A DNA stretch of 64,000 nucleotides, taken from contig NZ_CP126115.1 of NCBI RefSeq assembly GCF_030123505.1, forward strand, positions 1,626,001-1,690,000. The letters run 5' to 3'. Numbering within the stretch: the first letter of the stretch is position 1; each line of letters opens with the position of its first letter. Below are positions 16,498 through 32,677 of this stretch, one piece after another. The translations under genes and the position numbers were made by a program. A model generated the notes under the pieces. That model was not told the DNA's origin. It made no database searches and worked only from the letters and a program-made list of their open reading frames with translations. This stretch comes from Neobacillus sp. YX16. GTDB lineage: Bacteria > Bacillota > Bacilli > Bacillales > Cytobacillaceae.

Positions 16498-16827
16498 ATG
16501 CAAACACTGGAAACGGTGATTGTTACAGGATATGCAAAAGCTCCACAGGGAACTTCCATGTATGAAATGTATAAGCATGCGGGAATTGTCCTCGAAGTGG
16601 ATCTGAAAGATCATAAGATTATCGGAGCTGAATTCACATTCGTAACTGAACTAACAAAAAATTATTTTCAAAAACTGCTGATAGGCTACTGTCTTCAAGA
16701 CGGTGTTGAGCAGCTGATTAAACGAATTCAAAGTTTTTATTTTGCTCCATCCCAGCAAGCGATCATTGTGGCTCTTCAAGCTGCAGTTCAACGTTACTGG
16801 GATAATGTGAAGCAAATGAATACATAA
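16498..16827 (+). CDS. DUF3870 domain protein
   Basis: A 109-residue soluble protein of the DUF3870 family (MQTLETVIVTGYAKAPQGTS..., with the conserved FVTELTKNYFQKLLIGYCL middle). Function is unknown. It has its own strong promoter with an embedded palindrome and a cre-like site, and its own long terminator, so it is a separate unit. The location between pdxS and the lysine catabolic operon suggests a link to that pathway, perhaps regulatory or as a small-molecule-binding protein; this is inference from position only. Confidence 0.75.
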   Translation: MQTLETVIVTGYAKAPQGTSMYEMYKHAGIVLEVDLKDHKIIGAEFTFVTELTKNYFQKLLIGYCLQDGVEQLIKRIQSFYFAPSQQAIIVALQAAVQRYWDNVKQMNT

Positions 16828-16876
16828 CGTTTGGTTATAATAAAGTGGGAAGATGACCTCTTCCCATGGTCTTATT

Positions 16877-16962
16877 AAAACCGGGCAAACATGAACTCTG
16901 TATAAGGAATGTTCGTTGAAACGACATTCTTTATAGAGATTTATGTTTTGCTCGGTTTTTTT
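16877..16962 (+). terminator. Long composite hairpin terminator
   Basis: Outer stem AAAACCGGGCAAACAT (16877-16892) with ATGTTTTGCTCGGTTTT (16943-16959), enclosing an inner long stem (CTCTGTATAAGGAATGT paired with ACATTCTTTATAGAG), followed by a T-run. It is unusually large (about 85 bases) for a simple terminator. Confidence 0.75.
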
Positions 16963-16965
16963 ATT

Positions 16966-16980
16966 TTACCGAACGGTTAA
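16966..16980. promoter_or_regulatory. Inverted repeat upstream of the catabolic operon
   Basis: TTACCGAACGGTTAA holds the arms ACCG / CGGT around two bases, about 40 bases upstream of the first CoA-transferase gene. The form resembles TetR-type operators found near acyl-CoA catabolic genes. No clear sigma-A promoter is seen beside it. Confidence 0.4.
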
Positions 16981-17018: not shown

Positions 17019-17675
17019 ATGAGCAAGCTGATTACATGCGAAGAAGCTGTAAAAAAGGTTAAAAGCGGCTCTCGAATTATGGTAGGTGGATTTGGACTTG
17101 TAGGAAGTCCGCTTAGTTTAATAGCCGCTTTGGCTCAGTCGGAAGTGAAAGACTTAGAGATTATTAGTAATAACCTTGGTGAACCAGGTAGAGGTCTTGG
17201 AGTTTTAGTCCGGCAAAAGCAAGTAAAAAAAGCAATAGGTTCGTATTTTACATCCAATCCAGAAGTAGTTAAAGCTTATCAGGATAAAGAATTAGAAGTG
17301 GAGCTTCTCCCACAAGGAACGATGTCTGAAGCCATTCGAGCGGGCGGTGCGGGATTAGGAGGGTTTTATACACCAGTCAGCGTAGGAACGAAAATCGCTG
17401 AAAACAAAGAAGAGCGTACCCTTAATGGTAAAAAGTATGTATTTCAAGAGCCTCTTAAAGCCAATTTTTCTTTAATTAAAGCGAAAAAGGCAGATCAATT
17501 AGGAAATCTCATATACAACAAATCGGCAAGAAACTTTAATCCGATGATGGCAACAGCTGGGGATGTGGTTATTGCAGAGGTGGACGAGATTGTGGAGGTT
17601 GGCCAAATTTCTCCTGAAGAAATTGTGACCCCTCATTTATACGTTGATTATATAGTTGTGAAGGGCGGTAACTAG
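17019..17675 (+). CDS. 3-oxoacid CoA-transferase subunit A (YodS-like)
   Basis: The A subunit of a family I CoA-transferase (218 residues), which moves CoA between a CoA ester and a keto acid. Typical features are the early GGFGLVGSPLSLI glycine-rich turn and a C-terminal EVDEIVEVGQISPEEIVTPHLYVDYIV. It is the first gene of a tight operon; the B subunit begins one base after its stop. B. subtilis YodS/YodR sit with yodT and kamA in the same way. In this context, the substrate is probably 3-keto-6-acetamidohexanoate or acetoacetate rather than a generic fatty acid. Confidence 0.88.
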   Translation: MSKLITCEEAVKKVKSGSRIMVGGFGLVGSPLSLIAALAQSEVKDLEIISNNLGEPGRGLGVLVRQKQVKKAIGSYFTSNPEVVKAYQDKELEVELLPQGTMSEAIRAGGAGLGGFYTPVSVGTKIAENKEERTLNGKKYVFQEPLKANFSLIKAKKADQLGNLIYNKSARNFNPMMATAGDVVIAEVDEIVEVGQISPEEIVTPHLYVDYIVVKGGN

Positions 17676-17676
17676 C

Positions 17677-18339
17677 TTGAATATGAAACAATACATTGCT
17701 GCAAGAGCTGCAAAGGAATTGAAGGATGGCGATATCGTCAATTTGGGGATAGGGATTCCAACATTGGTGGCTGATTATATTCCATCAGATGTTAAAGTTT
17801 TTTTACACTCGGAAAACGGCATTCTTGGAGTAGGTCCTACGCCAGATCAAGAGCATATTGACCAAAATCTTGTCAATGCAGGGAAACTGCCTGTCACAGT
17901 ATTGGAAGGATCATCCTTTTTTGATAGTGCTTCCTCTTTTGCGATGATTCGCGGAGGGCATGTAAGCGTTTCAATCCTAGGCGTGTTGCAAATTGATCAA
18001 GTGGGGCGGATTGCCAACTGGGCCGTACCAGGAAAAAGTGTTCTTGGTGTAGGCGGGGCGATGGATTTATTGGAAGGCTCCAAAAAGGTCATTGTAACAA
18101 CGATGCATACTTCTAACCAAGGAGATTCAAAAATCGTCAAGGATTTAACTTATCCGGTCACATCGGAACGAATAGTGGATTTAATTATTACCGATTTGGC
18201 GGTGTTCGCTGTAAAGGAAGATGGACTTCATCTTATTGAGCTTTCCCCTGGAGTATCCCTTGAGGAAATTCAACAGAAAACGGACGCACCCTTCCAAATT
18301 GCTGAATCTTTCAATAAAGGCAAAGAGGTGAATGTATAG
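17677..18339 (+). CDS. 3-oxoacid CoA-transferase subunit B (YodR-like)
   Basis: The catalytic B subunit of the CoA-transferase (220 residues). The active-site glutamate is in the SENG motif (LHSENGILGVG), and GGHVSVSILGVLQID is also conserved. The start is a TTG at 17677, about 8 bases from AGGGCGG; an ATG at 17683 is the alternative. It overlaps the thiolase start by one base, so translation of subunits A, B and thiolase is likely coupled. With subunit A, it should form the alpha/beta heteromer needed to activate or release keto acids as CoA esters. Confidence 0.9.
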   Translation: MNMKQYIAARAAKELKDGDIVNLGIGIPTLVADYIPSDVKVFLHSENGILGVGPTPDQEHIDQNLVNAGKLPVTVLEGSSFFDSASSFAMIRGGHVSVSILGVLQIDQVGRIANWAVPGKSVLGVGGAMDLLEGSKKVIVTTMHTSNQGDSKIVKDLTYPVTSERIVDLIITDLAVFAVKEDGLHLIELSPGVSLEEIQQKTDAPFQIAESFNKGKEVNV

Positions 18340-19529
18340 TGGTTGTAATTGTAAATGCATTTAGGACTGCTATCGGAAGCTTCGGTGGGTCACTGGCAGA
18401 TACGCCTCCGGAAGTGCTCGTATCCCTCATCATGAAAAATAATCTTTCTGCTTCCGGTTACGGTGCCAATATTGTCGATGAAGTCATCGTCGGACAAACA
18501 AAGCAGAGTGCGCATGCTCCGAATATTGCAAGAGTCGCGGCATTACAGGCCTATTTTCCAGTATCTATTCCTGCTTATACTGTTCACCGTCAGTGCGGTT
18601 CGGGCATGCAGGCCGTCATTAACGGAGCGATGTCCATTTTGACTGGTCAGGCGGAAGTCGTTATAGCAGGAGGTGTCGAAAACATGTCACAAGCGCCTCA
18701 TTATACGCTTGGCACTCGAATCGGCCACAAGATGGGAGATATGACGCTGTATGATTCAAATACGGAGAGTCAGCCAAAATCGCAGCCAGAGGAGATATAC
18801 GGTCGTTTCACGATGGGGCAAACAGCTGAGTGGCTGGCTGAAAAATATAACATTACCCGCCGTGAACAAGATGAATTTGCTTTCACGAGTCAGCAGAAAA
18901 CGAAACGTGCAATTGAAATGGGCCACTTTGAAGAAGAAATCATACCTGTTCCGGTAAAGGAAGGAAAAAAGGGGATCCGACACTTTGCGATAGATGAGTA
19001 CCCAAGATTGACGGACATTGAAAAGTTAGGAACACTAAGTTCTGTGTTTCAAAAGGATGGTACGGTAACAGCCGGAAACTCATCCGGAAGAAATGATGGA
19101 GCTTCGATGCTGCTGTTGATGTCGGAAGAAAAAGCGATACAACTTGGAGTGGTCCCGATGGCAAGGATTCGTTCCTTTGCTGCAGCGGGTGTATCACCAA
19201 AAGATATGGGAATCGGTCCGGTTCCTGCATCCCAGATTGCGTTGAAAAAAGCGGGTCTTCGTTTGGAAGATATCGATTTGATTGAATTAAATGAAGCATT
19301 CGCTGCTCAAAGTCTTGCTTGTTTAAAAGAATGGGACATAAAAGGAGACAACGTGAATGTAAACGGAGGGGCGATTGCCTTAGGCCATCCACTTGGGTGC
19401 TCCGGTGCGAGAATCGTCACTACATTATGCCATGAGCTTGAAAAACAAAAACGGCAATATGGCCTTGCGACGATTTGTGTGGCAGGTGGATTAGGACTGG
19501 CAATGGTGGTGGAAAGATGGATGGAATAA
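18339..19529 (+). CDS. Thiolase family protein (acetyl-CoA acyltransferase)
   Basis: A 396-residue thiolase. The nucleophilic Cys is in [10 protein letters not shown], the histidine sites in LNEAFAAQ and [16 protein letters not shown], and the second Cys in TICVAGGLG. It starts with GTG, overlapping the preceding stop by one base. Thiolases cut 3-ketoacyl-CoA with CoA into acetyl-CoA and a shortened acyl-CoA. Next to a CoA-transferase and KamA, the likely substrates are acetoacetyl-CoA and/or 3-keto-6-acetamidohexanoyl-CoA; the sequence alone does not decide. The local base composition is GC-richer than flanking core genes. Confidence 0.92.
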
Positions 19530-20902
19530 ATAAAGACTACGTGTTTCATCGTGATTTAAAAAAGGAGTACCCGATTATTACCCACGGTGTAGGAGTCTAT
19601 CTCATAGATGAGAACGGGAAAAAATATTTGGATGCTTGCTCGGGAGCGGTTGCAGCCAACTTGGGCCATGGGATTACTTCTATAGGAGAGGCCATGGCAG
19701 AACAAGCAAAAAAAGCAGCTTTCGTTCATACAATGCGCTTTGAGACGAAAGCGTTGCATGAACTGGCTGAAACAATCGGAAAAATGGCTCCAGACCATTT
19801 AAATAAAGTGTATTTTACAACAGGAGGCTCCGAAGCAAATGAAAGTGCTTTGAAGCTGGCGAGGCAATATCATAGGGACGCCGGCAGACCCCAAAAACAC
19901 ATTGTGATCGGGCGATGGCAATCGTACCACGGTAACACTATCGGTTCTTTATCAGCAGGAGGAGATGTTAAAAGAAGGCATGCATACACTCCTAATCTTT
20001 TAAACTATGCCCATGTCTATTCTCCGTACTGCCACCGATGTCCATACGATCGTCAAAAAGATGATTGTCTCTCTAAACAAAACTGGACATGTGTAACGGA
20101 TATTGAAAGAACCATTTTTGAGCTTGGTCCTGAGAACGTGTCGGCATTTATTGCCGAACCGATTGTTGGAAGCCAGCAAGGTGCTGTTCCACCGCCGCCG
20201 GGGTATTTTGAGAAAGTTCGAGAGCTGTGTGATCATTACGAAATCGTCTTAATTATCGATGAAGTGATGACTGGATTTGGCCGTACTGGTACCAACTTCG
20301 CGACAGAACAGATTGGAATCAAGCCTGATATAATCACATTCGGAAAAGGGGTATCAGCGGGATATGCTCCGCTCGCCGGAATGATCGTTCATAATCGGTT
20401 AATCGATGGGCTCATTCAAAACAGCGACGGGAAATTCATTCACGGTTACACATATAGTGGGCATCCTGTTGCTGTTGCAGCCGGTCTTGCTGCATTGGAC
20501 GTATATAAGCGAGATATGGTGCTGGAAAACGTCAAAAAACAAGGTACCTACCTTGTCAAACGTCTTATGGAGCTGAAGCAAAAACATTCTTATATATCTG
20601 ATGTTCGGGGCAGAGGGCTTTTAATAGGTATGGAGCTTGTGAAGGATCCTGGGCAGGATCTGTTGTTCGATCCATCTGAAAAAGCTGCTGAAAGATTGAA
20701 TGGAATTGCGATGGAACTCGGTGCGGTTTTTTATCCCGGTTCCGGTTCAATTGACGGTACAAAGGGGGAGCACCTCATCATCAGCCCTCCTTTAAATGTT
20801 ACGAGAGCAGAAATTGATGAGATTGTAAGAATTTTAGATGAATCATTCACGATATTCAAAGGTCAATTAAGAAAGGATGAGATTTATGAAATTACAAAAT
20901 AA
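19517..20902 (+). CDS. Class III PLP aminotransferase (YodT-like)
   Basis: A class III (omega) aminotransferase of 461 residues. The PLP lysine is Lys277 in [11 protein letters not shown], with the Asp of [14 protein letters not shown] coordinating the cofactor. A Cys-rich segment, residues about 172-192 (YCHRCPYD...CLSK...TC), is seen in this YodT-like subgroup. The start is the ATG at 19517, inside the last codons of the thiolase gene (13-base overlap). It is the best candidate to remove the 3-amino group of beta-lysine or its acetyl derivative. Its partner acceptor is probably 2-oxoglutarate, regenerated by the glutamate dehydrogenase downstream. Confidence 0.87.
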
Positions 20903-22181
20903 AACAGCAGAGATTAAAGAAAAAGCACAAAAACATTTATCACCGGTTATGACAAGGGTAACGGAGCTTGTCATTGAAAAAGCGCATGGCGCCAAATTTT
21001 GGACGACAGACGGAAAGGAGTATATCGATTTCGTTTCAGGAGTGGCTGTCAATGCAGTCGGGCATACGAACAGGAAAATGGTGGAGGCCATTAAAAAGCA
21101 AGCTGAAGCCTTGATTCATCTTGGATTGAACTATGGTTATTATGAAACGGCAGCGAATTTGGCGGAAAAGCTTGCTCATATCACACCAGGAAATCTAGAC
21201 ACTGTCTTTTTCTCCAATTCGGGAGCTGAAGCTATTGACGGTGCACTTAAACTAGCAAAGGCGGCCACAGGCAGGCCCGCCATCATTGCTTTTGAAGGAT
21301 CGTTTCATGGCCGTACATTAGGAGCAACAGCCATTACTGCATCAAGCTCTAAATACCGTCGTTATTATGAACCGATTTTAGGTGAGGTGTATCACGTTCC
21401 ATATCCGTATCCCAGCCAGCTGAAAAACATTAGAGAAGAAGAAGCTGAAGAGTATTGCTTGAATCAGCTTCAAAAGTTGTTCGATTTACGGGTGGATCCT
21501 TCACGAGTAGCGGCCATCATCATTGAACCTGTAATGGGTGAAGGCGGCTATTATCCAGCACCGCCAAGCTTTTTGCAGGAGTTAAGAAAGATTTCAGAGG
21601 AACACGGCATTTTGCTTATCTTTGACGAAGTACAAACAGGATTTGGCAGGACAGGCAAAATGTTCGCGGCAGAACATGCGAATGTGACTCCTGATATTTT
21701 AGTACTGGCAAAAGCCCTTTCCGGCGGCATGCCTCTTGGTGCCATTGTAGCATGTCGTGAGCTTCATGAAAAATGGCCGACGGCCGGTCATGGTTCGACA
21801 TTTGGAGGAAATCCAGTTTCTTGTGCTGCGGCATTGGCAAACATAGAGGTCATTGAGGAAGAGAAGTTAGTAGAACGCAGTGCTAAACTCGGTGCCGAGA
21901 TTGTCGGCCGACTTCATAACTCAGTAGGACATTTACCGGGCATTGTTGAAGTTCGAGGAGTCGGCATGATGATCGGTATCGAATTCGATTCGGAATCTGC
22001 TGCTTTCTTAGTACCGAAAATTAAATCGAAAGCACTTGAAAATGGATTGCTCATTATGAACTGTGGTGTAAGCGGGCAAACAATCCGATTAATGCTGCCT
22101 CTTAATATTCAAGAAGACGTGCTAGATATAGGATTAACGATTTTAGAAGATGTGATAACAGAAACAATATCCGGAAACTAA
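20886..22181 (+). CDS. 4-aminobutyrate-type class III aminotransferase
   Basis: A second class III aminotransferase (431 residues), closer to GABA transaminase than its neighbour. The glycine-rich NSGAEAIDGALKLA, the FDEVQTGFGRTG block and Lys276 in VLAKALSGGMPLGA are all present. The ATG at 20886 has AAAGGA eight bases upstream and is preferred to ATG 20877; it overlaps the upstream gene by 17 bases. Followed by an aldehyde dehydrogenase, it forms a GabT-GabD-like pair that would turn 4-aminobutyrate into succinate semialdehyde and then succinate. Ornithine or acetylornithine cannot be excluded as substrate. Confidence 0.85.
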   Translation: MKLQNKTAEIKEKAQKHLSPVMTRVTELVIEKAHGAKFWTTDGKEYIDFVSGVAVNAVGHTNRKMVEAIKKQAEALIHLGLNYGYYETAANLAEKLAHITPGNLDTVFFSNSGAEAIDGALKLAKAATGRPAIIAFEGSFHGRTLGATAITASSSKYRRYYEPILGEVYHVPYPYPSQLKNIREEEAEEYCLNQLQKLFDLRVDPSRVAAIIIEPVMGEGGYYPAPPSFLQELRKISEEHGILLIFDEVQTGFGRTGKMFAAEHANVTPDILVLAKALSGGMPLGAIVACRELHEKWPTAGHGSTFGGNPVSCAAALANIEVIEEEKLVERSAKLGAEIVGRLHNSVGHLPGIVEVRGVGMMIGIEFDSESAAFLVPKIKSKALENGLLIMNCGVSGQTIRLMLPLNIQEDVLDIGLTILEDVITETISGN

Positions 22182-22222
22182 TTTTCGATTCCTCGGAATA
22201 CAACGAAAAAGGAGGTCAAGTT

Positions 22223-23683
22223 ATGTCTAGTCAAATCAAAACAGATATTCTTCAGGGAGATCTTTATATAAATGGAAAATGGGTAACTGCCCCTGATCAG
22301 TCCTACTTTGAAAGCTTAAATCCGGCAACGGGGGAACTTGTCGGCATATGTGCGGCCGCCACAACGGAGCAAGTGGATGAGGCTGTCGCAAAAGCGAATG
22401 TAGCCTATTCACAATGGAAGATCACCCCCATTCCTGAACGAGCGGCTTATTTAACGAAAGCAGCCCAATTGTTTGAAAGACGAAAAGAGGAACTTGCTAG
22501 TGTCATGACAATGGAGATGGGAAAAGTGCTGCCAGAGTCTATAGGCGAAGTTGGAGTGGTCATCGCGACTGCTCAATATATGGCAGGTGAGGGACGACGC
22601 CTGTTTGGAGAAACGGTCCCGACCAGCTTCCCAGACCGGAACGTAAGAATGGTTCGTGAACCTCTTGGAGTTACGGCGTGCATTACCCCCTGGAACTTCC
22701 CAGTTGCGCTTGCTTCTTACAAAATCTTTTCAGCCCTGATTTCTGGTAATACCGTCGTATGGAAGCCTGCTTCAGAGGTTGCGCTATCGGCAAAGATATT
22801 TGTGGAAGTGTTAGATGAAGCCGGATTGCCAGCAGGGGTTGTGAACTTAATTACCGGTTCAGGAAGAACAGTTGGTCAAACACTCGCAGAGCATTCAGAT
22901 GTTAAAATCATTTCGTTTACGGGCTCAACAGAAGTCGGACAAAAGCTAGCTGAAATGAGCAGTAAAACGTTAAAACGTATTTCATTGGAATTAGGTGGGA
23001 AAAATGCAGTGATCGTCTTGAAGGACGCAGACTTGGACAAGGCGGCAGACGGAATCGTAAAATCAGCGTTTACGACAACTGGTCAGCGCTGTACAGCGGC
23101 AAGTCGAGTAATCGTTGAGCGTCCAGTAAAGGAACTGCTCGTACAAAAAGTAGTTGAATTAACAAAGTCTCTGAAAATAGGAAATGGACTTGAAGAAGGG
23201 AAACAAGTGGGCCCTCTCGTAAATGAAGACCAGCTTCATACAGTCGAAAAATATGTAAAAACAGCGATTGAAGAAGGTGGGCAAATTGTGTCAGGTGGGC
23301 AGCGTGTCAAAGAATTAGGCGGTTATTACTATCAGCCGACAATCATTGAGAATGTGAAACCAAATGATACCATTGCACAGGAAGAAATTTTTGGCCCTGT
23401 TCTTGCCATCATTGAAGTAGATTCATATGAAGAAGCCATAGAGGTAAATAACGGGACTATTTATGGTCTATCAACTTCCATTTATACTGAGAGCCTTCAT
23501 TATGCGAACCGTGCTGCAAAGGAAGCGGTAAGCGGACTTGTCTATATTAATAACGGAACATCCAATGCCGAGATGGGAGTGGCGTTTGGGGGTATGAAAA
23601 TGTCCGGAAACGGTCACCGTGAAGTTTCCCATCATGTATTTGATGTCATGACAGAGTGGAAGTCGATTTATACAAATTATTAA
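22223..23683 (+). CDS. NAD(P)+-dependent aldehyde dehydrogenase (succinate-semialdehyde type)
   Basis: An ALDH-superfamily enzyme of 486 residues with the catalytic Cys290 (TTGQRCTAAS) and general base Glu256 (SLELGGK), plus the TPWNFP cofactor motif. It sits behind a perfect AAAGGAGGT ribosome site, 41 bases after the GABA-type aminotransferase. In this position, its most likely substrate is succinate semialdehyde, though glutarate or other omega-aldehydes are possible. It has the GC-richer composition of the cluster (33 of 60 bases G or C in the line 22621-22680). Confidence 0.9.
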   Translation: MSSQIKTDILQGDLYINGKWVTAPDQSYFESLNPATGELVGICAAATTEQVDEAVAKANVAYSQWKITPIPERAAYLTKAAQLFERRKEELASVMTMEMGKVLPESIGEVGVVIATAQYMAGEGRRLFGETVPTSFPDRNVRMVREPLGVTACITPWNFPVALASYKIFSALISGNTVVWKPASEVALSAKIFVEVLDEAGLPAGVVNLITGSGRTVGQTLAEHSDVKIISFTGSTEVGQKLAEMSSKTLKRISLELGGKNAVIVLKDADLDKAADGIVKSAFTTTGQRCTAASRVIVERPVKELLVQKVVELTKSLKIGNGLEEGKQVGPLVNEDQLHTVEKYVKTAIEEGGQIVSGGQRVKELGGYYYQPTIIENVKPNDTIAQEEIFGPVLAIIEVDSYEEAIEVNNGTIYGLSTSIYTESLHYANRAAKEAVSGLVYINNGTSNAEMGVAFGGMKMSGNGHREVSHHVFDVMTEWKSIYTNY

Positions 23684-23760
23684 CTAACTCTGATGTATTA
23701 ATCACCAGGGAAGTTCAGGGCTCTTTTTTTGATAACTTCATATATCCGAGGGAGGAGAAT

Positions 23761-25281
23761 ATGAGAAAACATCGTATCGGTATCGCATTCTTTTACCATG
23801 AATCCCACAGTTTCAGCCCGATGAAGACTGAAATCGAACAGTTTCGCAATGAAGGCTACTTTATTGGCGATGAAATTTATGATGCCTATATGGGCACTAA
23901 AACGGAAGTGGGCGGGTTTTTGGATGTAATGAAACAAGAAAGGGATGTAGAAATCGTACCACTGCTTTGTGCGGCAGCGGTCCCATCGGGCGTAGTATCA
24001 GCAGAAGCCTATTCTATCATCGAAGAGCAAATGATGGAGTCAATCCGGGAGGCTGGACGGCTGGACGGCTTATTGCTGGCACTGCATGGGGCAATGGTCG
24101 TGGAGGACCTATTTGATCCGGAAGAGCATTTACTAGGAAAAATTCGTGAGCTTATCGGACCGAGTGTCCCGATTGCGACAACACTGGATATGCACGCTAA
24201 TTTAAGTGGAAAAATGATTCATTATACACCACTTCATTTTGGATTTAAAACATATCCACATGTTGATATGTATGAACAAGGAGTTCATGCTTCAATGGCT
24301 TTATTGAAGCAATTAAAGGAAGGTGTGCATTATTATGCTTCTTTTGAAAAATTGCCGATGATGCCTCCCTCTATCAATATGAGAACTGCAGAAGGACCGA
24401 TGCACAAAATGATAGAGTGGGCGAAACAAGCCGAAGAGGAAGAAGAAATTTATAATGTGTCCGTATTTGGTGGCTTTCCTTACTCGGATATTCCTATGGT
24501 CGGTGCAAGTGTACTGGTTGTTTCGCTCAATCCACAAAAAGGAAAAGAGACAGCCCAAAAGATGGCTTCCTTGTTCTGGAGTGTAAGAGAAGAATTTATC
24601 ATGAATTTGCCCGGTGTAAAAGAAGGGCTCGATTTGGCGATGTCGATTGAAGATGACAAACCGGTCGTGCTGGCGGACATCTCGGATAATCCTTTAAGCT
24701 GCGGGAGCGGGGATACAACAGAGCTGCTTCGGGAAATGGTGAAGCTGGATATTCCGGATACATTGTTTGGCGGGCTCTACGATCCCGAATCGATCGAGCT
24801 TTGTCGTAAAGCAGGGGTAGGAAAAAAGGTATGGCTGTCCCTTGGCGGGAAAGTATCTCCTGAATTTGGGGAAACCGTTCAGGTCGAAGCAACGGTCGTG
24901 GCACTATCAGACGGTATTTTTCACAATTCTGGGCCCTTCAATCAGCATTTAAGAGTCGATTTAAAGGGGGCGGCTCACATTCGCGTTGGCAAGATGGATA
25001 TACTCCTCATTGGAAGGCCGATGTCAGCGAATGATCCGGAAATGTTTCGTCATATTGGCCTTGAGCCGCAGGCAAAGAGAATTCTTGGGTTAAAGGCTAA
25101 AAATCATTTTCGGGCAGCGTTTGAGCCGATTGTTGGCCGTATCATTTATGTGGATGCACCTGGTGTTGCATCCAATCGTTTAACAACTTTTACGTATCGT
25201 TACATTCCTAAGCCAATTTGGCCGCTGGATGATATCGAATATGAAGTAGAACTAAGGGGGAAAGAAAAATGGAAACATTGA
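23761..25281 (+). CDS. M81 family metallopeptidase (MlrC-like)
   Basis: A 506-residue protein of the MlrC/DUF1485 type. Metal-binding histidines are likely in FYHESHSFSP (residues about 15-24) and TLDMHANLSGK; a C-terminal DUF1485_C-like region follows, with DISDNPLSCGSGDTTELL. The start at 23761 lies behind GGGAGGAG; the upstream in-frame extension is not conserved-looking. The founding member, MlrC, cleaves a linear peptide in microcystin breakdown, and other members are probably amidohydrolases. In a lysine operon that lacks the M20-type deacetylase YodQ, it could be the amidase that removes an acetyl group. That role is inference. Confidence 0.85.
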   Translation: MRKHRIGIAFFYHESHSFSPMKTEIEQFRNEGYFIGDEIYDAYMGTKTEVGGFLDVMKQERDVEIVPLLCAAAVPSGVVSAEAYSIIEEQMMESIREAGRLDGLLLALHGAMVVEDLFDPEEHLLGKIRELIGPSVPIATTLDMHANLSGKMIHYTPLHFGFKTYPHVDMYEQGVHASMALLKQLKEGVHYYASFEKLPMMPPSINMRTAEGPMHKMIEWAKQAEEEEEIYNVSVFGGFPYSDIPMVGASVLVVSLNPQKGKETAQKMASLFWSVREEFIMNLPGVKEGLDLAMSIEDDKPVVLADISDNPLSCGSGDTTELLREMVKLDIPDTLFGGLYDPESIELCRKAGVGKKVWLSLGGKVSPEFGETVQVEATVVALSDGIFHNSGPFNQHLRVDLKGAAHIRVGKMDILLIGRPMSANDPEMFRHIGLEPQAKRILGLKAKNHFRAAFEPIVGRIIYVDAPGVASNRLTTFTYRYIPKPIWPLDDIEYEVELRGKEKWKH

Positions 25282-25748
25282 ACAAAACCTATTATGTCGA
25301 AGTACCAGCTTCATTGAATCCAGAACAGCTAAAAATGATGATGGAGCTTGAGCAAGATGCGTTTCCGGGATTAGGAGCAGTAGATGAACAAGCCCTTGTC
25401 CCACTTACACGCTACGGGAAACTCATTCAATACCGGCAGCAAAATGATCCAAGACCGATTGCGATTTGCGAAGTGATGAGAGCTTACAATGATATTCATA
25501 AAGCCTACATTTTTGGGTTTTATGTCCGCTCCGACCAGCAAGGGAAAGGAATCGGGAAATTATTTTTACAGGCAATTTATCCGATTCTAAAGCAAGATGG
25601 TTTTCGTAAGGTTTGCTTAACGGTCAGTACTAAAAACAAGGCAGCCGTCAAGTTATATGAAAAATTAGGGTTTGTCATAAAAGAGACAAGATTCGATGAA
25701 TTTGGCGAAGGGGAAAATCGCTATTATATGGAATACCTCATTTCTTAA
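25269..25748 (+). CDS. GNAT acetyltransferase (candidate beta-lysine N6-acetyltransferase)
   Basis: A GNAT enzyme of 159 residues with the acetyl-CoA-binding motif RSDQQGKGIGKLF and a typical C-terminal NKAAVKLYEKLGF. It overlaps the M81 gene by 13 bases and precedes kamA by 71 bases. B. subtilis YodP and archaeal AblB, neighbours of kamA or ablA, are beta-lysine acetyltransferases, so this gene is the positional counterpart. It is clearly shorter than AblB-type proteins (about 220-280 residues as I recall them), so it may be a different GNAT recruited to the same step or one acting on another amine. Confidence 0.8.
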   Translation: METLNKTYYVEVPASLNPEQLKMMMELEQDAFPGLGAVDEQALVPLTRYGKLIQYRQQNDPRPIAICEVMRAYNDIHKAYIFGFYVRSDQQGKGIGKLFLQAIYPILKQDGFRKVCLTVSTKNKAAVKLYEKLGFVIKETRFDEFGEGENRYYMEYLIS

Positions 25749-25819
25749 TATAGTAATGATCAGAGGAGAATTCATAAAAAATGGTCAATAAAAAAATAGG
25801 CTAATTTTAGGAGGAGTTT

Positions 25820-27232
25820 ATGATGAGAAACACTTTATTCAAACCAAAAAGACATTGGAAAGAAATCGAGCTTTGGAAGGATGTTACAGAGGAGCAATGG
25901 AACGATTGGGTTTGGCAGCTGACGAATACTATCAAAAATTTAGAAGACTTAAAGAAAGTAGTTAACTTAACACCAGAAGAAGAGGAAGGGGTTTTAATCT
26001 CAACAAAAACAATCCCATTAAACATCACGCCATATTATGCTTCCCTTATGGATCAGGATGATCCAAGATGTCCGGTTCGAATGCAGTCTGTTCCGATTTC
26101 TGCGGAATTGAATAAAACAAGATATGATTTAGAAGATCCCCTTCACGAAGATGAAGACTCACCAGTACCTGGGTTAACACATCGTTATCCGGATCGCGTG
26201 TTGTTCTTAGTAACAAATCAATGCTCCATGTACTGCCGTTACTGTACTAGAAGACGTTTCTCCGGACAAATCGGAATGGGCGTGCCAAAGAAACAGTTAG
26301 ACACAGCGATAAATTATATTGCATCAAATCCGCAAATCAGAGATGTGTTAATTTCCGGAGGAGACGGGCTCCTTATTAATGACAATATTGTAGAATATAT
26401 TTTAAAGAATTTACGTGAGATTCCGCATGTAGAAATTATTCGTATTGGTACAAGAGCACCTGTCGTTTTCCCACAGCGTATTACTGAAAATCTTTGTAAT
26501 ATCTTGAAAAAGTATCATCCAGTTTGGTTGAATACACATTTCAATACATCTATTGAAATTACGGAAGAATCGAAGCGTGCATGTGAGATGCTTGCAAATG
26601 TTGGTGTACCTGTTGGTAACCAGTCTGTTATTTTGGCAGGCATTAACGACAGTGTACCGATCATGAAACAGCTTATGCATGACCTTGTTAAAATTCGTGT
26701 TCGTCCATATTATATTTACCAATGTGATTTATCAGAAGGGATTGGCCATTTCCGTGCACCAATCAGCAAAGGATTGGAAATTATGGAAGGACTTCGCGGT
26801 CATACATCGGGTTATGCCGTTCCGACATTTATTGTTGATGCCCCAGGTGGAGGAGGCAAAATTCCATTGCAGCCGAACTATATCATTTCTCAAAGTTCTA
26901 ATAAAGTCGTATTACGTAACTTTGAAGGTGTCATTACATCTTATCCAGAACCAACAAATTATCAGTCAGGCAGTGCAGAGGATTACTACAAAAAGGTATA
27001 TCCTGAAGTGTTTGAAAAGTTTGAAAGTAATGGTGTTCTATCCATTATTGATGATACGAAATTTAACCTTACACCTGAAGGATTAAAACGGTTAGATCGC
27101 CGCAAAACGTATAAGGAAAATACTGAGCATAGTTCATTAAAAGATAAACGTGACAAACGTGACGAGTTAAAAGAGAAAAAATTCCAATCGCAAATGAAGA
27201 AATATGAAACAGTGGGAGCAAAGGAGGAATAA
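25820..27232 (+). CDS. kamA: L-lysine 2,3-aminomutase KamA
   Basis: A radical SAM, PLP-dependent enzyme that converts L-lysine to L-beta-lysine. All signatures are present: iron-sulfur cluster motif Cys-x3-Cys-x2-Cys (Cys135, Cys139, Cys142), the GGDGLL SAM-binding turn, and PLP Lys347 in APGGGGKIPL. The 470-residue length matches B. subtilis KamA. Two ATG codons in tandem (25820, 25823) follow AGGAGGAG. Two sample lines of this gene have 33-38% G+C by hand count, much lower than the genes just upstream (45-58%), suggesting a separate origin. The C-terminal 40 residues are a Lys/Glu/Asp-rich tail. Confidence 0.97.
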   Translation: MMRNTLFKPKRHWKEIELWKDVTEEQWNDWVWQLTNTIKNLEDLKKVVNLTPEEEEGVLISTKTIPLNITPYYASLMDQDDPRCPVRMQSVPISAELNKTRYDLEDPLHEDEDSPVPGLTHRYPDRVLFLVTNQCSMYCRYCTRRRFSGQIGMGVPKKQLDTAINYIASNPQIRDVLISGGDGLLINDNIVEYILKNLREIPHVEIIRIGTRAPVVFPQRITENLCNILKKYHPVWLNTHFNTSIEITEESKRACEMLANVGVPVGNQSVILAGINDSVPIMKQLMHDLVKIRVRPYYIYQCDLSEGIGHFRAPISKGLEIMEGLRGHTSGYAVPTFIVDAPGGGGKIPLQPNYIISQSSNKVVLRNFEGVITSYPEPTNYQSGSAEDYYKKVYPEVFEKFESNGVLSIIDDTKFNLTPEGLKRLDRRKTYKENTEHSSLKDKRDKRDELKEKKFQSQMKKYETVGAKEE

Positions 27233-27234
27233 TT

Positions 27235-27513
27235 TTGATTTGTCAATGGTGCGAATCTGACACAGCACGTGAAACAAGCAACACAGTGTATTGGGAACTT
27301 CCAGATGGAACAAATGCGATCGAAATTAAGGACACACCATCCATTCATTGCTTGGAATGCGGTATGACCTATCAAACAGATAATACGGTGAAAGAAATTG
27401 AGGATCATCTATTTTTAATCGATTGCTCAAAGCTCGATAAAAGTATGAAGTATGATACACTTATGGCTGCTCCACGCTTATTGAAGCGAAACTACTTTGA
27501 TTTTTCGAAATAA
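27235..27513 (+). CDS. yokU: YokU-family zinc-ribbon protein
   Basis: A 92-residue protein with two Cys-x2-Cys knuckles (ICQWC and HCLEC), a likely zinc ribbon, starting with TTG behind AAGGAGG and two bases after the kamA stop. In B. subtilis, yokU is likewise the gene following kamA. It is also distantly similar to YgiT-type zinc domains. Its function is unknown; tight coupling with kamA suggests a role tied to the aminomutase, for example in cluster assembly or regulation. AT-rich like kamA. Confidence 0.85.
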   Translation: MICQWCESDTARETSNTVYWELPDGTNAIEIKDTPSIHCLECGMTYQTDNTVKEIEDHLFLIDCSKLDKSMKYDTLMAAPRLLKRNYFDFSK

Positions 27514-27806: not shown

Positions 27807-29309
27807 ATGGAAGCACTCAAAAGCTATAAAAACGACCAAAGTAATCAGAAGGTTCAGAATAGTGAAGAAAGTAAAGGGCATATTAAACGCAATCTAAAGG
27901 CACGTCACATGACGATGATTGCTATTGGAGGGTCAATCGGAACAGGGTTATTTTTAGCGACAGGGTCATCCATTCAAACAGCTGGACCTGGTGGAGCGCT
28001 AATAGCTTATGGAGTTATCGGCATCATGGTCTACTTTTTGATGACAAGTCTCGGAGAAATGGCTACCTTAATGCCGGTTTCGGGATCCTTTTCAACATAT
28101 GGCAGCCGTTTTGTCGATCCGGCATTTGGTTTTGCGCTCGGTTGGAACTATTGGTTCAACTGGGCTGTTACACTTGCGGTTGAAATAGTTGCATCAGCTA
28201 TTATTATGAAGTTCTGGTTTCCGGATGTACCGAGCATCGTGTGGAGTACTCTGTTTTTAGGTCTAATCTTTTTATTGAATGCACTGTCGGTTAAAAGTTA
28301 CGGAGAATCCGAGTATTGGTTCTCCTTAATAAAAGTAGTAACAATCATCGTTTTCATTGGAGTCGGTTTGCTCACCATTTTCGGGATTCTGGGCGGACAG
28401 TTTATCGGGTTTAAAAACTTTACAGTAGGACATGCTCCTGTTAATGGCGGCCTTTTGTCCGTTTTAAGTATTTTTTTAATCGCAGGTTTTTCATTTCAAG
28501 GAACGGAGCTCGTGGGGATTGCTGCAGGAGAAAGTGAAGCGCCAGAGAAAAACGTACCAAAGGCGATTCGACAAGTATTTTGGCGTATTCTACTATTTTA
28601 CATCGTTGCCATTGCTGTCATTGGCCTAATTATTCCTTATACAAGTCCTGACCTGTTGGGTAGGGATGTCGACAACATCGCTGTCAGCCCTTTTACCCTT
28701 GTATTTGAGAAAGTGGGCATTGCATTTGCGGCATCTGTGATGAATGCTGTCATTTTGACATCGGTCTTATCGGCAGGTACTTCCGGTTTATATGCATCGA
28801 CACGCATGCTTTGGTCCATGGCAAAGGACGGTCAGGCACCTAAATTTTTACAAAATGTAAATGATCGCGGGATTCCGATGAATGCCCTTGTCATGACGAC
28901 GATTATCGGAGGCTTGGCCTTTTTAACGTCCATTTTTGGAGATCAAGTGTATACATGGTTATTAAATGCGTCAGGCTTAACTGGATTTATTGCATGGCTT
29001 GGAATTGCAGTCAGCCACTATCGTTTTAGAAAAGCATATATGGCCCAGGGCAGGGACTTAAATGATTTGAAATTTAAAGCGAAATGGTTCCCGCTTGGTC
29101 CGATTCTCGCTTTTGCGATGTGTGTTATTGTCATTTTTGGTCAAAATTATCAAGCTTTTTTAACTAGTGAGATTGATTGGTATGGCGTAGCCGTGTCCTA
29201 TATTGGTTTACCAATCTTTTTGGGATTATGGCTCGGGTATAAACTCGTTCATAAAACGAAGGTCGTTCCACTAAAGGAATGTTCTTTTGATGAGATGTCA
29301 TCTAAATAG
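27807..29309 (+). CDS. APC-family amino acid permease (LysP/YbgF type)
   Basis: A 12-helix amino acid:proton symporter of 500 residues. The N-terminal signature RNLKARHMTMIAIGGSIGTGLF marks the amino acid transporter group that includes LysP, GabP and YbgF. It starts behind AAGGAGGAC. Next to kamA and a GABA-type aminotransferase, the probable substrate is lysine, beta-lysine or GABA. It is GC-rich like the catabolic genes upstream (32 of 60 in the line 28501-28560). Transcribed in the same direction as the operon but separated by about 290 bases. Confidence 0.88.
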   Translation: MEALKSYKNDQSNQKVQNSEESKGHIKRNLKARHMTMIAIGGSIGTGLFLATGSSIQTAGPGGALIAYGVIGIMVYFLMTSLGEMATLMPVSGSFSTYGSRFVDPAFGFALGWNYWFNWAVTLAVEIVASAIIMKFWFPDVPSIVWSTLFLGLIFLLNALSVKSYGESEYWFSLIKVVTIIVFIGVGLLTIFGILGGQFIGFKNFTVGHAPVNGGLLSVLSIFLIAGFSFQGTELVGIAAGESEAPEKNVPKAIRQVFWRILLFYIVAIAVIGLIIPYTSPDLLGRDVDNIAVSPFTLVFEKVGIAFAASVMNAVILTSVLSAGTSGLYASTRMLWSMAKDGQAPKFLQNVNDRGIPMNALVMTTIIGGLAFLTSIFGDQVYTWLLNASGLTGFIAWLGIAVSHYRFRKAYMAQGRDLNDLKFKAKWFPLGPILAFAMCVIVIFGQNYQAFLTSEIDWYGVAVSYIGLPIFLGLWLGYKLVHKTKVVPLKECSFDEMSSK

Positions 29310-29430: not shown

Positions 29431-30717
29431 ATGGGAGAAGTAGGGGTAACAGAGCGCAATACAGAACAAAAGTCAGATGAGTCTTTGAACCTTTTAACAT
29501 CAACACAGATTGTGATAAAAGAAGCCTTAGATAAATTAGGTTATACAGATGATATGTACCAACTATTAAAAGAACCATTGAGAATGCTCACTGTTCGTAT
29601 GCCTGTTAGAATGGATGACGGGTCGACTAAAATATTCACTGGATATCGTGCGCAGCATAATGATGCTGTTGGACCGACAAAAGGCGGAGTTCGTTTTCAT
29701 CCAGAAGTAGACGAGGACGAAGTTAAGGCATTGTCGATGTGGATGAGTTTAAAATGCGGCATCGTCGACCTACCATATGGAGGCGGAAAAGGCGGTATTA
29801 TTTGCGACCCAAGAACGATGTCAATGGGAGAACTAGAGCGGCTTAGCAGAGCTTATGTTCGGGCAATCAGCCAAATTGTAGGACCTACAAAGGACATACC
29901 TGCTCCAGATGTATATACAAACTCACAAATTATGGCGTGGATGATGGATGAATACAGCAGGCTTCGTGAATACGATTCGCCTGGATTCATTACAGGGAAA
30001 CCACTTGTACTTGGCGGCTCGCATGGCCGTGAAAAGGCTACCGCACAAGGAGTTGTCATATGCATTGAGGAAGCTGCAAAAAAACGTAGAATTACGATCA
30101 AAGGAGCTCGGGTGGTCGTTCAAGGGTTTGGTAATGCAGGGAGCTTTTTAGCAAAATTTATGCATGATGCAGATGCAAAGGTCATTGGGATATCTGATGC
30201 TTATGGTGCGCTTTATGATCCAGATGGTTTGGATATTAATTACTTATTAGATCGTAGAGATAGCTTTGGAACGGTAACAACATTGTTTGATAACACGATT
30301 ACAAATGAAGAGTTACTCGAGCTTGACTGTGATATTCTAGTTCCAGCTGCAATTTCCAACCAGATTACCACAGCTAATGCACATAATATCAAAGCTTCGA
30401 TTGTTGTCGAGGCAGCTAACGGCCCAACAACCCTAGAAGGGACTAAAATACTTTCTGATAGAGGAATTCTGTTAGTGCCGGATGTTTTAGCTAGTTCAGG
30501 AGGAGTAACTGTTTCCTATTTTGAATGGGTTCAAAACAACCAAGGCTACTATTGGAGTGAAGAAGAAGTTAATGAAAAGCTTCGTAAGGTGCTCGTCCAA
30601 TCGTTTAATAATGTTTATGAAACATCCGAGCGACGGAATATTAATATGCGTTTAGCCGCATATATGGTAGGTGTTCGTAAAATGTCTGAAGCATCAAGGT
30701 TTAGAGGCTGGGTATAA
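29431..30717 (+). CDS. NAD-specific glutamate dehydrogenase (RocG/GudB family)
   Basis: Catalyses oxidative deamination of glutamate to 2-oxoglutarate and ammonia. The 428-residue sequence closely resembles B. subtilis RocG/GudB from memory, including PTKGGVRFHPEV, the catalytic-lysine block GGGKGGI, and the C-terminal RLAAYMVGVRK...SRFRGWV. At the end of a transamination pathway, it would recycle glutamate and deliver ammonia and NADH. Whether it is the housekeeping copy or a second gene dedicated to lysine use cannot be seen here. A perfect terminator follows, into which a group II intron has inserted. Confidence 0.93.
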   Translation: MGEVGVTERNTEQKSDESLNLLTSTQIVIKEALDKLGYTDDMYQLLKEPLRMLTVRMPVRMDDGSTKIFTGYRAQHNDAVGPTKGGVRFHPEVDEDEVKALSMWMSLKCGIVDLPYGGGKGGIICDPRTMSMGELERLSRAYVRAISQIVGPTKDIPAPDVYTNSQIMAWMMDEYSRLREYDSPGFITGKPLVLGGSHGREKATAQGVVICIEEAAKKRRITIKGARVVVQGFGNAGSFLAKFMHDADAKVIGISDAYGALYDPDGLDINYLLDRRDSFGTVTTLFDNTITNEELLELDCDILVPAAISNQITTANAHNIKASIVVEAANGPTTLEGTKILSDRGILLVPDVLASSGGVTVSYFEWVQNNQGYYWSEEEVNEKLRKVLVQSFNNVYETSERRNINMRLAAYMVGVRKMSEASRFRGWV

Positions 30718-30791: not shown

Positions 30792-32677
30792 GTGCGCCCG
30801 GCATGGGTGCAGTCTCTAGGGTGAAAGTCCCGAACCATGAAGGCAGTAGTAATGGTTAGCCTAACGCAAGGGTGTCCGCGGTGACGCGGAATCTGAAGGA
30901 AGCGAGCGGCAAACCTCCGGTCTGAGGAACACGAACTTCATATAAGGCTAGGTATCATTGGATGAGTTTGCAACACAAAACAAAGTCCTTACTGCCGAAG
31001 GTGGTACAGAGTAAATGAAGCAGATAGATGGAGGGAAAGACTGTACTCTTACCCGGGGAGATCTGATTGATAAGCCAAGTACACTTGGTAAACTATCTAG
31101 CAATGGATAGCTGAACAATCAGAAGTCAGCAGAAGTCATAGTACCATTCTTACTCGAGAAAGAATGGGAAGGACTGAACTATTAAGAAAGAATGAAGTCT
31201 GCACATTCGGTGATTGCATTGAACACAGACAATCCGAAAGGACCTACCTAAAGGAGGAAGCGGTGAATCCGTTGGGGACTCTAGGAGGGTGGAGCAAAAG
31301 TCGGCATAAACAGAACCTTCATTCACGTAGAAAGGATAACATCATGTTAATGGAACTAATTCTATCACGGGAAAATCTCTTAACTGCCCTAAAAAGGGTA
31401 GAGCAGAACAAAGGAAGTCACGGCATAGATGGAATGTCCGTAAAATTCCTACGACGACATCTCTATGAAAACTGGGATTCCCTTCGGGAAACTTTGAGAA
31501 CAGGTAACTATCAACCTTCTCCTGTTCGCCGTGTCGAAATCCCGAAACCAGGCGGAGGGATAAGGCTTTTAGGCATACCGACTGTGACAGACCGTTTCAT
31601 CCAACAGGCAATCGCCCAAGTATTAACCTCAATCTTTGATCCAACATTTTCTGAAAACAGCTATGGTTTCCGACCTAACAGGAGCGCCCATAATGCGGTA
31701 AGAAAGGCAAAGGGTTATATCAAAGAAGGTTACCGCTGGGTAATTGATATGGACTTAGAGAAATTCTTTGATAAGGTTAATCATGACATACTGATGGGAA
31801 TACTCGCTAAGAGAATTGAAGACCGCATTCTTCTCAAACTAATCAGGAAATACCTTCAATCAGGTGTAATGCTTAATGGGGTCGTACAATCAACGGAGGA
31901 AGGTACTCCGCAAGGGGGACCTCTCAGTCCACTACTTTCAAACATAATTCTTGATAAATTAGATAAAGAATTGGAAGCCAGAGGGCATAAGTTTGTCCGT
32001 TATGCGGATGACTGCAACATTTATGTTAAGTCATTAAAAGCAGGGGAACGTGTGATGGAATCCATTACGACGATTATTGAGCAGAAACTAAAATTGAAGG
32101 TAAACAGGGATAAGTCGGCAATCGACCGTCCGTGGAAACGGAAATTTCTTGGTTTCAGTTTCACATTTAATAAAGAACCGAAGGTGCGAATAGCGAAACA
32201 AAGCATTAAACGCTTTAAGACGAAGATTCGAGAAATTACCTCTCGGTCAAAACCTATCCCACTTGAGGTAAGAATTGAAATGTTAAACCGCTATCTTACA
32301 GGATGGTGCGGGTACTTCGCTTTAGCGGACACTCCAAGCAAATTCAAAGAATTTGATGAATGGATAAGAAGAAGGCTAAGAATGTGCGAATGGAAACAGT
32401 GGAAGAAATCTAAAACTAGAGTTAGAAAACTGATTGGTTTAGGCGTCCCTGGTTACAAGGCGCACGAATGGGGCAACTCCAGAAAGAAATACTGGAGAAT
32501 CGCCTGTAGCCCAATATTACACAAAACCCTCGATAACTCATATTGGAGTCAACGAGGGTTGAAAAGTCTATATAACCGTTATGAAACTTTACGTCAATCT
32601 TAATAGAACCGCCGTATACCGAACGGTACGTACGGTGGTGTGAGAGGTCGGGGGTTAGTCACCCCCTCCTACTCGAT
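30792..32677 (+). mobile_element. Group IIC intron, apparently complete
   Basis: The 5' end GTGCG (30792) matches the group II boundary, and the catalytic domain V hairpin lies at about 32606-32645 (AACCGCCGTATACC... with its GTACGTACGGTGGT partner). Domain VI (GGGGGTTAGTCACCCCC) and the end near CCTACTCGAT follow. It encodes a class C-type reverse transcriptase. Insertion directly behind a terminator stem is the known habit of IIC introns. The 3' boundary is estimated by eye. Confidence 0.9.
31344..32603 (+). CDS. ltrA: Group II intron reverse transcriptase/maturase (class C)
   Basis: A 419-residue intron-encoded protein resembling the thermostable GsI-IIC enzyme in length and sequence pattern. 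It has RT motifs (EIPKPGGG, SYGFRPNRSAHNAV, the VIDMDLEKFFDKVNHD block, TPQGGPLSPLLSNI and the catalytic YADD), followed by a maturase X domain (residues about 300-400) and no HNH endonuclease domain. It has no frameshift or stop. The ATG at 31344 lies behind GAAAGGA; an in-frame extension to 31164 runs through intron domain structure and is not expected to be translated. It supports splicing and retrohoming of the intron. Confidence 0.95.
   Translation: MLMELILSRENLLTALKRVEQNKGSHGIDGMSVKFLRRHLYENWDSLRETLRTGNYQPSPVRRVEIPKPGGGIRLLGIPTVTDRFIQQAIAQVLTSIFDPTFSENSYGFRPNRSAHNAVRKAKGYIKEGYRWVIDMDLEKFFDKVNHDILMGILAKRIEDRILLKLIRKYLQSGVMLNGVVQSTEEGTPQGGPLSPLLSNIILDKLDKELEARGHKFVRYADDCNIYVKSLKAGERVMESITTIIEQKLKLKVNRDKSAIDRPWKRKFLGFSFTFNKEPKVRIAKQSIKRFKTKIREITSRSKPIPLEVRIEMLNRYLTGWCGYFALADTPSKFKEFDEWIRRRLRMCEWKQWKKSKTRVRKLIGLGVPGYKAHEWGNSRKKYWRIACSPILHKTLDNSYWSQRGLKSLYNRYETLRQS

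Follow-up and report, generated by a model that had tools for sequence, protein, structure and literature searches.

The window analyzed here is a 64,000-nt stretch of Neobacillus sp. YX16 (NZ_CP126115.1, positions 1,626,001–1,690,000; its own genome is labeled G000), and our subject is a ten-gene candidate operon for lysine degradation within it. A sequence-only reading of this DNA had described the ten genes as tightly packed, and this was borne out: translation of the open reading frames (ORFs) confirmed all ten as open on the + strand, spanning exactly 17019–27513, and overlapping or lying ≤77 bases apart. With the likely ATG starts, i.e., those judged from the translations at 19517 for the first aminotransferase (AT1), 20886 for the second (AT2; 20877 possible), and 23761 for the M81 hydrolase, the successive gaps were 1, −1, −13, −17, 41, 77, −13, 71, and 2 bases, and the distance to the following gene was 293 bases. 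The AT1 ORF opens upstream of its likely ATG, at 19475 (TTG). From 5′ to 3′, the genes and their family scores are:

17019–17675, + strand: 3-oxoacid coenzyme A (CoA)-transferase subunit A (CoTA); TIGR02429, 243.4 bits, cut-off 128.5
17677–18339, + strand: 3-oxoacid CoA-transferase subunit B (CoTB); TIGR02428, 303.1, cut-off 243.55; SENG motif
18339–19529, + strand: thiolase; TIGR01930, 461.3 bits, cut-off 240.55
19517–20902, + strand: class III aminotransferase AT1, YodT-like; NF005685, 482 against a cut-off of 485; NF005375, 463.7 against 535
20886–22181, + strand: class III aminotransferase AT2, proposed 4-aminobutyrate (GABA) transaminase; NF005993, 554 against 574; ORF opens at 20877
22223–23683, + strand: aldehyde dehydrogenase (ALDH), proposed succinate-semialdehyde dehydrogenase; PF00171, 550.9 bits
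23761–25281, + strand: M81 (MlrC-like) hydrolase, proposed deacetylase; PF07364 and PF07171
25269–25748, + strand: GNAT family acetyltransferase of 159 aa, putative N6-acetylase of beta-lysine; PF00583
25820–27232, + strand: KamA, lysine 2,3-aminomutase; TIGR03820, 632.8, cut-off 525.4
27235–27513, + strand: YokU; TIGR03829, 138.9, cut-off 90.85

Family scans supported the earlier assignment of KamA, YodT-like and GABA-type aminotransferases, an ALDH, a CoA-transferase, and a thiolase to a lysine-degrading operon. Curated NCBIfam cut-offs for such names were passed only by KamA, YokU, and, at the subfamily level, CoTA, CoTB, and the thiolase. CoTA and CoTB qualify as a 3-oxoacid CoA-transferase, with TIGR02429 and TIGR02428 both over cut-off and an ENG motif; the SENG motif of CoTB, whose Glu we take to be the catalytic residue, was present in 26/27 copies nearest to the window CoTB. 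The thiolase retains its active-site motifs (NEAF, GHP, and both cysteines) and passed no equivalog among its best 25 of 47 family matches. AT1 is 40.7% identical to the genome’s own YodT, encoded at a second locus, which passes the YodT model NF005375 that AT1 misses. GABA transaminase models match AT2 with up to 406 bits, under cut-off, and its nearest solved structures are PuuE and some GabT. Since AT1, AT2, and ALDH passed no equivalog cut-off among the families listed (the best 25 matches each, for ALDH 25 of 45), the substrates given for these three enzymes are putative.

The same gene set recurs at other KamA loci. In a sample close to the query, made up of the window and the best 80 named KamA loci (81 in total), 28 loci were window-like (type I) and 52 resembled the classical Bacillus operon (type II); no locus mixed the two, and one (L025) was neither. 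AT2, M81, and GNAT occurred in 28/28 type I loci, and CoTA, CoTB, thiolase, AT1, and ALDH in 27/28, the exception (L014) lying at a contig end with split ORFs. Because the set recurs in 27–28 of the 28 type I loci, its arrangement is not a product of chance. YokU was called in 21/28, a longer opposite-strand ORF having been picked instead in several of the remaining loci. YodP, YodQ, and KamR were found in none of the 28 type I loci, as against KamR adjacent in 51/52 type II loci. Among the matches listed, the closest KamA relatives (99%) came from Neobacillus and its kin.

KamA matches were obtained at two places in G000, at 1651820 (the window) and at 4216868–4218265, the second being 83% identical. 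The latter belongs to a classical operon (L083, G000:C1:4216868–4224512) with KamA, KamR, AblB/YodP (290.9 bits over 205.1), ALDH, YodQ (NF005373, 693.5 over 428), CoTB, CoTA, and YodT (NF005375, 732.8 over 535), so that G000 holds two parallel lysine routes. The sequence-only reading had stated that neither YodQ nor the keto acid cleavage enzyme BKACE is present. This holds for BKACE (PF05853), with 0 matches in the entire genome, including any gene outside the operon that the same reading had named as contrary evidence; for YodQ it holds within the operon and fails for the genome, where YodQ lies at 4.22 Mb. In the BKACE search, 14 controls gave a match only in Deinobacterium chartae; as the control set run by the same method includes Bacillus subtilis, that species also seems to lack BKACE. 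Neither KamDE, Kdd, Kal, nor Kce is among the operon genes, a check made in the operon for the first three and extended genome-wide for Kce (BKACE).

Across 199 genomes of the order, KamA was found in 108, BKACE in 32, and both in 11 (odds ratio 0.38, p = 0.019), i.e., 97/108 KamA-bearing genomes lacked BKACE. A comparison of the lists gave the 11 genomes with both as G153, G168, G190, G197, G230, G272, G273, G294, G306, G307, and G311, and only in G272 did BKACE lie close to KamA on one contig. Judging from the sizes and order of its genes, that cluster (L209, 8119–13296), a lysine cluster with KamA in two ORF pieces, resembles a fermentation cluster. In G306, a type I genome, BKACE is present far from both KamA loci. 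No BKACE version of the acetyl route was seen in the order, the sole linked BKACE being that of L209. In a wider sample of the class, BKACE occurred in 41/151 genomes and KamA (E ≤ 1e-150) in 59/151, often in surroundings that resemble fermentation clusters (judged by eye from gene sizes, 8/61 loci without a KamA row being left out).

The earlier reading had also counted a YodP counterpart among the genes, an identity we rejected for the GNAT: the window GNAT has no TIGR03827 match, and this family sits instead at G000 4220158–4220943. An acetyltransferase/amidohydrolase pair is nonetheless present as claimed, the deacetylase candidate being the M81 hydrolase. Alignment to 7ylq places five active-site residues of MlrC opposite M81 E14, H109, D143, H145, and H167 (counting from the 23761 ATG), and all four M81 motifs were kept in 25/27 copies. 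Mutation of the five MlrC residues is described as nearly abolishing the activity of that enzyme (PMC9506587). The window protein is not an MlrC equivalog, scoring 188.4 on NF041767 against a cut-off of 999. Among the best 120 of 509 M81 homologues (E ≤ 1e-100, from 7998 candidates scored), nine were M81-GNAT fusions. The GNAT half was 46–60% identical to the window GNAT in three (P0072, P0075, and P0080) and had no significant similarity to it in the other six (P0112, P0113, P0114, P0117, P0118, and P0119), which, with three GNAT halves related to the window’s and six not recognizably so, suggests that fusion occurred as two separate events. One of the six is annotated as Leucobacter. Joining an acetylase and a deacetylase in one chain would be reasonable if each has its own intermediate as substrate, one early and one late in the route.

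A close M81 (≥55% identical to the window’s) was found in 8/199 genomes of the order, and 8/8 carry KamA (Fisher p = 0.008, a value that overstates independence, the eight genomes coming from few genera); distant M81 proteins (31–35%) in 11 other genomes showed no link, with KamA in 5/11 (p = 0.55). Of 12 chosen genomes, seven had AblB above cut-off, and the five lacking it (G171, G211, G242, G177, and G216), in a genome-wide scan for AblB alone, are those with an M81-GNAT set and a single KamA. G000, G306, and G332, each with two KamA, hold both the AblB and the M81-GNAT kinds. Given the M81-GNAT fusions, the AblB-less single-KamA genomes, and the co-retention of all pieces except the thiolase in genomes where the set is broken up, the places of YodP and YodQ in the type I operon are most likely taken by GNAT and M81.

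These broken-up sets are informative for the CoA-transferase as well. L154 and L155 are complete sets; L156 and L157 are sets without KamA, which lies elsewhere beside KamR; L158 (G242) is a set without thiolase; and in L159 and L160 (G171 and G211) only AT1, AT2, ALDH, M81, and GNAT stay together. In the last two genomes, KamA (with YokU seen in L199) and CoTA-CoTB occupy other places in the genome, the dispersed CoTA-CoTB being 60–65% identical to the window’s and no other CoTB having been found in either genome. Because the dispersed pieces, thiolase excepted, stay in the genome, this pattern supports a single predicted pathway that includes the CoA-transferase.

We then compared the CoA-transferases and thiolases by phylogeny. 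For the CoA-transferase tree, drawn with a midpoint root, 39 pairs were selected from the 96 found so as to cover their diversity. Type I formed a single clade, as did type II (support 100/99). The proposal that the window CoA-transferase is the YodR/YodS counterpart was rejected, as was a topology uniting the two types (approximately unbiased test, p = 0.0174; long branches, those of L202 and L205, are in play). L202, an odd CoA-transferase pair, groups with type II. The tree of thiolases (39 rows, one of them 32% filled, and L219 and L228 being the same gene) was made by a quick method with the Shimodaira–Hasegawa-like approximate likelihood ratio test (SH-aLRT) alone. In it, type I thiolases form one clade (SH-aLRT 98) apart from the thiolases beside the genome’s other CoA-transferases (L086 and L087), i.e., two further adjoining CoA-transferase/thiolase pairs in G000 that presumably serve acetoacetate. 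The second catalytic Cys lies in CxAGG in 27/27 type I thiolases and in CxGGG in 9/9 genome paralogues. Outside type I, the type II operon of L106 (107–4353) carries a thiolase gene placed between those for CoTB and YodQ. This thiolase shares CxAGG and has His in the HMG motif, where six type I rows have Thr, Ser, or Asn, a difference to which we gave no weight as a sign of chain-length specificity; it falls in a clade other than the window’s, and a common origin of the two was not supported in the quick tree. The thiolases of G242 and G211 nearest to the window clade sit among genes resembling acyl-CoA degradation genes, not kam genes, as judged by eye from sequence starts. As we read these trees, CoA-transferase and thiolase would each have entered KamA operons on several occasions, because the type I and II CoA-transferases, like the L106 and window thiolases, lie in separate clades.

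Taken together, these data lend good support to a catabolic role and make it probable that the operon serves aerobic use of lysine with cleavage by a CoA-transferase and a thiolase, in parallel to the classical KamA operon of the same genome. Specifically, KamA would convert lysine to beta-lysine, and the small GNAT would acetylate its N6, which would stop the later keto acid from cyclizing. AT1 would turn N6-acetyl-beta-lysine into 3-keto-6-acetamidohexanoate, the CoA-transferase would form the CoA ester of this acid, and the thiolase would cut 3-keto-6-acetamidohexanoyl-CoA into acetyl-CoA and 4-acetamidobutyryl-CoA. The CoA of the latter would be passed on, either to the next keto acid molecule or to a different acceptor, while M81 would remove the acetyl group from 4-acetamidobutyrate (or its CoA ester) to give GABA, and AT2 with ALDH would take GABA to succinate. 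We infer each substrate, the order of steps, and the CoA donor from the gene content. The self-priming variant, in which 4-acetamidobutyryl-CoA feeds the next turn, is chemically plausible and is put forward tentatively and by analogy; other CoA donors may be used, and deacetylation may take place at the CoA-ester level, a deacetylase-thiolesterase being reportedly known from Pseudomonas beta-lysine work.

Several observations weigh against this reading. Of the operon enzymes, only KamA scores above an equivalog cut-off for the reaction assigned to it, and in G177, G216, G171, and G211 its gene lies apart from the rest of the set. The type I CoA-transferases branch with presumed acetoacetate-type, thiolase-adjoining pairs (L203, L204, L208, and L008). 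A dedicated thiolase is not required, as none was present in any of the 52 type II operons and as the enzyme is absent from the window-like sets of L158–L160 and truncated in G216 (where the truncated gene was not picked up by the genome search); within those sets it is the least constant member, dispensable or supplied from elsewhere. For the classical operon, published work describes wild-type Bacillus thuringiensis HD73 as not using lysine as a nitrogen source (PMC4428206) and B. subtilis KamA as made only in sporulation (PMC6522883).

The best surviving alternative, which we nevertheless find unlikely, attaches CoA first: the CoA-transferase would activate N6-acetyl-beta-lysine, AT1 would act as an acyl-CoA beta-transaminase, and the thiolase would cut the resulting 3-ketoacyl-CoA, avoiding a free, easily decarboxylated beta-keto acid. 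The gene set fits this order equally well, and Kat, a thioester-only acyl-CoA beta-transaminase, is reported for a variant lysine fermentation (PMC3149608). Yet both CoA-transferase subunits belong to the 3-oxoacid subfamily, and Kat is HemL-like in that source’s description whereas AT1 is YodT-like by its family scores.

It is quite unlikely, in our estimate, that an unrecognized non-BKACE enzyme cleaves the keto acid to acetoacetate and 4-acetamidobutyryl-CoA, leaving CoA-transferase and thiolase only to process acetoacetate to acetyl-CoA. Such a division of labor is described for lysine fermentation (PMC3149608), and the neighborhood of the type I CoA-transferase clade, noted above, would suit it. 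However, all ten genes have other likely roles, such that a gene outside the operon would have to supply the cleavage enzyme; BKACE is absent; G000 already has two other CoA-transferase/thiolase pairs; and in the quick tree the thiolases adjoining those pairs fall outside the type I clade. Less probable still is that N6-acetyl-beta-lysine, formed by KamA and GNAT, serves as a compatible solute, as titles and abstracts describe for methanogens, or as a spore metabolite, as the sporulation restriction of B. subtilis KamA might suggest, with the remaining genes recycling it: two aminotransferases, a CoA-transferase, a thiolase, an ALDH, an amidohydrolase, and an adjoining permease point to catabolism, and B. 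thuringiensis kamA is reported to be controlled by sigma54 and KamR besides sigma-K (PMC4428206).

The preferred CoA-transferase/thiolase reading has partial counterparts among known systems. Like the classical yodT-yodR-yodS-yodQ-yodP-kamR-kamA-yokU operon, the window operon has a single acetyltransferase and a single amidohydrolase alongside KamA, YokU, a CoA-transferase of the 3-oxoacid type, and an aminotransferase resembling YodT. It differs from that operon in having a small GNAT for YodP and M81 for YodQ (M20), in lacking KamR, in including thiolase, GABA-type aminotransferase, and ALDH as regular members, in a CoA-transferase of another clade, and in a leader RNA in front. The Pseudomonas B4 beta-lysine pathway of Barker’s group, which reportedly uses an acetyl-CoA-dependent cleavage to acetoacetate, is said to share N6-acetyl-beta-lysine, 3-keto-6-acetamidohexanoate, 4-acetamidobutyryl-CoA, GABA, and succinate semialdehyde with our proposal, whereas the window genome has no BKACE for such a step. 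In the beta-ketoadipate pathway, the transferase PcaIJ activates a 3-keto acid and the product of the thiolase PcaF can donate CoA, the same logic as the proposed loop, although the window thiolase falls below the PcaF cut-off (378.8 vs. 597). MlrC microcystinase shares its M81 fold family and the five active-site residues with the window M81, which differs in its score far below the MlrC cut-off, its operon context, and its GNAT fusions.

No account of this gene set was found in the literature searched, a search beyond whose reach most subscription papers lay; by title, pathway intermediates turn up in what appear to be metabolomics or multi-omics studies. The transamination of N6-acetyl-beta-lysine and the deacetylation of 4-acetamidobutyrate or its CoA ester are, to our knowledge, known biochemically with genes unassigned. 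The operon would offer candidate genes for both steps, a role for an M81 clade, and a possible answer to how the carbon chain is cleaved in KamA-bearing Bacillaceae without BKACE. It would also bring a candidate regulatory RNA to a lysine operon, located upstream of CoTA and downstream of the gene preceding it:

16498–16827, + strand: DUF3870 protein, 109 aa; conserved upstream partner
16830–16966, + strand: leader RNA, candidate attenuator; two-helix hairpin at 16830–16888, then a terminator hairpin with a T run

The leader is strongly conserved, with a hairpin carrying invariant ATAAAGTG and CATGGTCTTATT. Its pattern was matched at 25/28 type I loci (window included) and at L154–L157, and not at L014 (where the upstream part is missing), L026 (where a look-alike leader is visible by eye), or L040; no leader was found at L040, L158–L160, or L196–L199. 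In 18 leaders, 97.0% of cells pair (39–57% in slid controls), and in four pairs both partners change (mean of 1.1 after shuffling, with four attained in 2/500 shuffles), numbers that provide support, not proof, as the aligned rows are close relatives and the source of the structure. RNAalifold also recovered the terminator, with compensatory changes. The basal helix of the hairpin pairs alignment columns 4–7 with 50–53, and columns 51–53 are shared with the 5′ arm of the terminator. Because the hairpin’s 3′ strand overlaps that arm, the leader would be a candidate attenuator acting through mutually exclusive antiterminator and terminator.

Rfam returned no family at gathering score for the leader; the eight matches with E ≤ 5 scored well short of that threshold. 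A cmsearch of 60 of the 238 sources gave seven sense matches, all of them type I leaders, and three reverse-strand echoes (E 0.02–0.3); the look-alike at L026 was not matched by the model. Where type I operons have this RNA, type II operons have KamR alongside (51/52). The AlphaFold model of DUF3870 weakly resembles the IscU/SufU fold, its single cysteine is not conserved, and the idea that it binds RNA found no support; in the literature searched, the name DUF3870 turned up only in work on a different family. A broader picture, more doubtful than the self-priming donor itself, would have the loop replace BKACE also in type II operons with a thiolase from elsewhere, GNAT and M81 form a second, unrelated acetyl on/off pair, and the leader represent a new attenuator class that may sense either DUF3870 or a metabolite of the lysine pathway and switch the operon.

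Downstream of YokU, the window continues with two genes:

27807–29309, + strand: amino acid permease; PF00324; downstream neighbor in 20/28 type I loci
29431–30717, + strand: glutamate dehydrogenase; PF00208 and PF02812; downstream neighbor in 5/28 type I loci

Directly 3′ of the glutamate dehydrogenase gene lies a group II intron (30875–32603), with Rfam D1D4 pieces at 30875–31174 and a reverse transcriptase-like ORF at 31164–32603 within the intron region.

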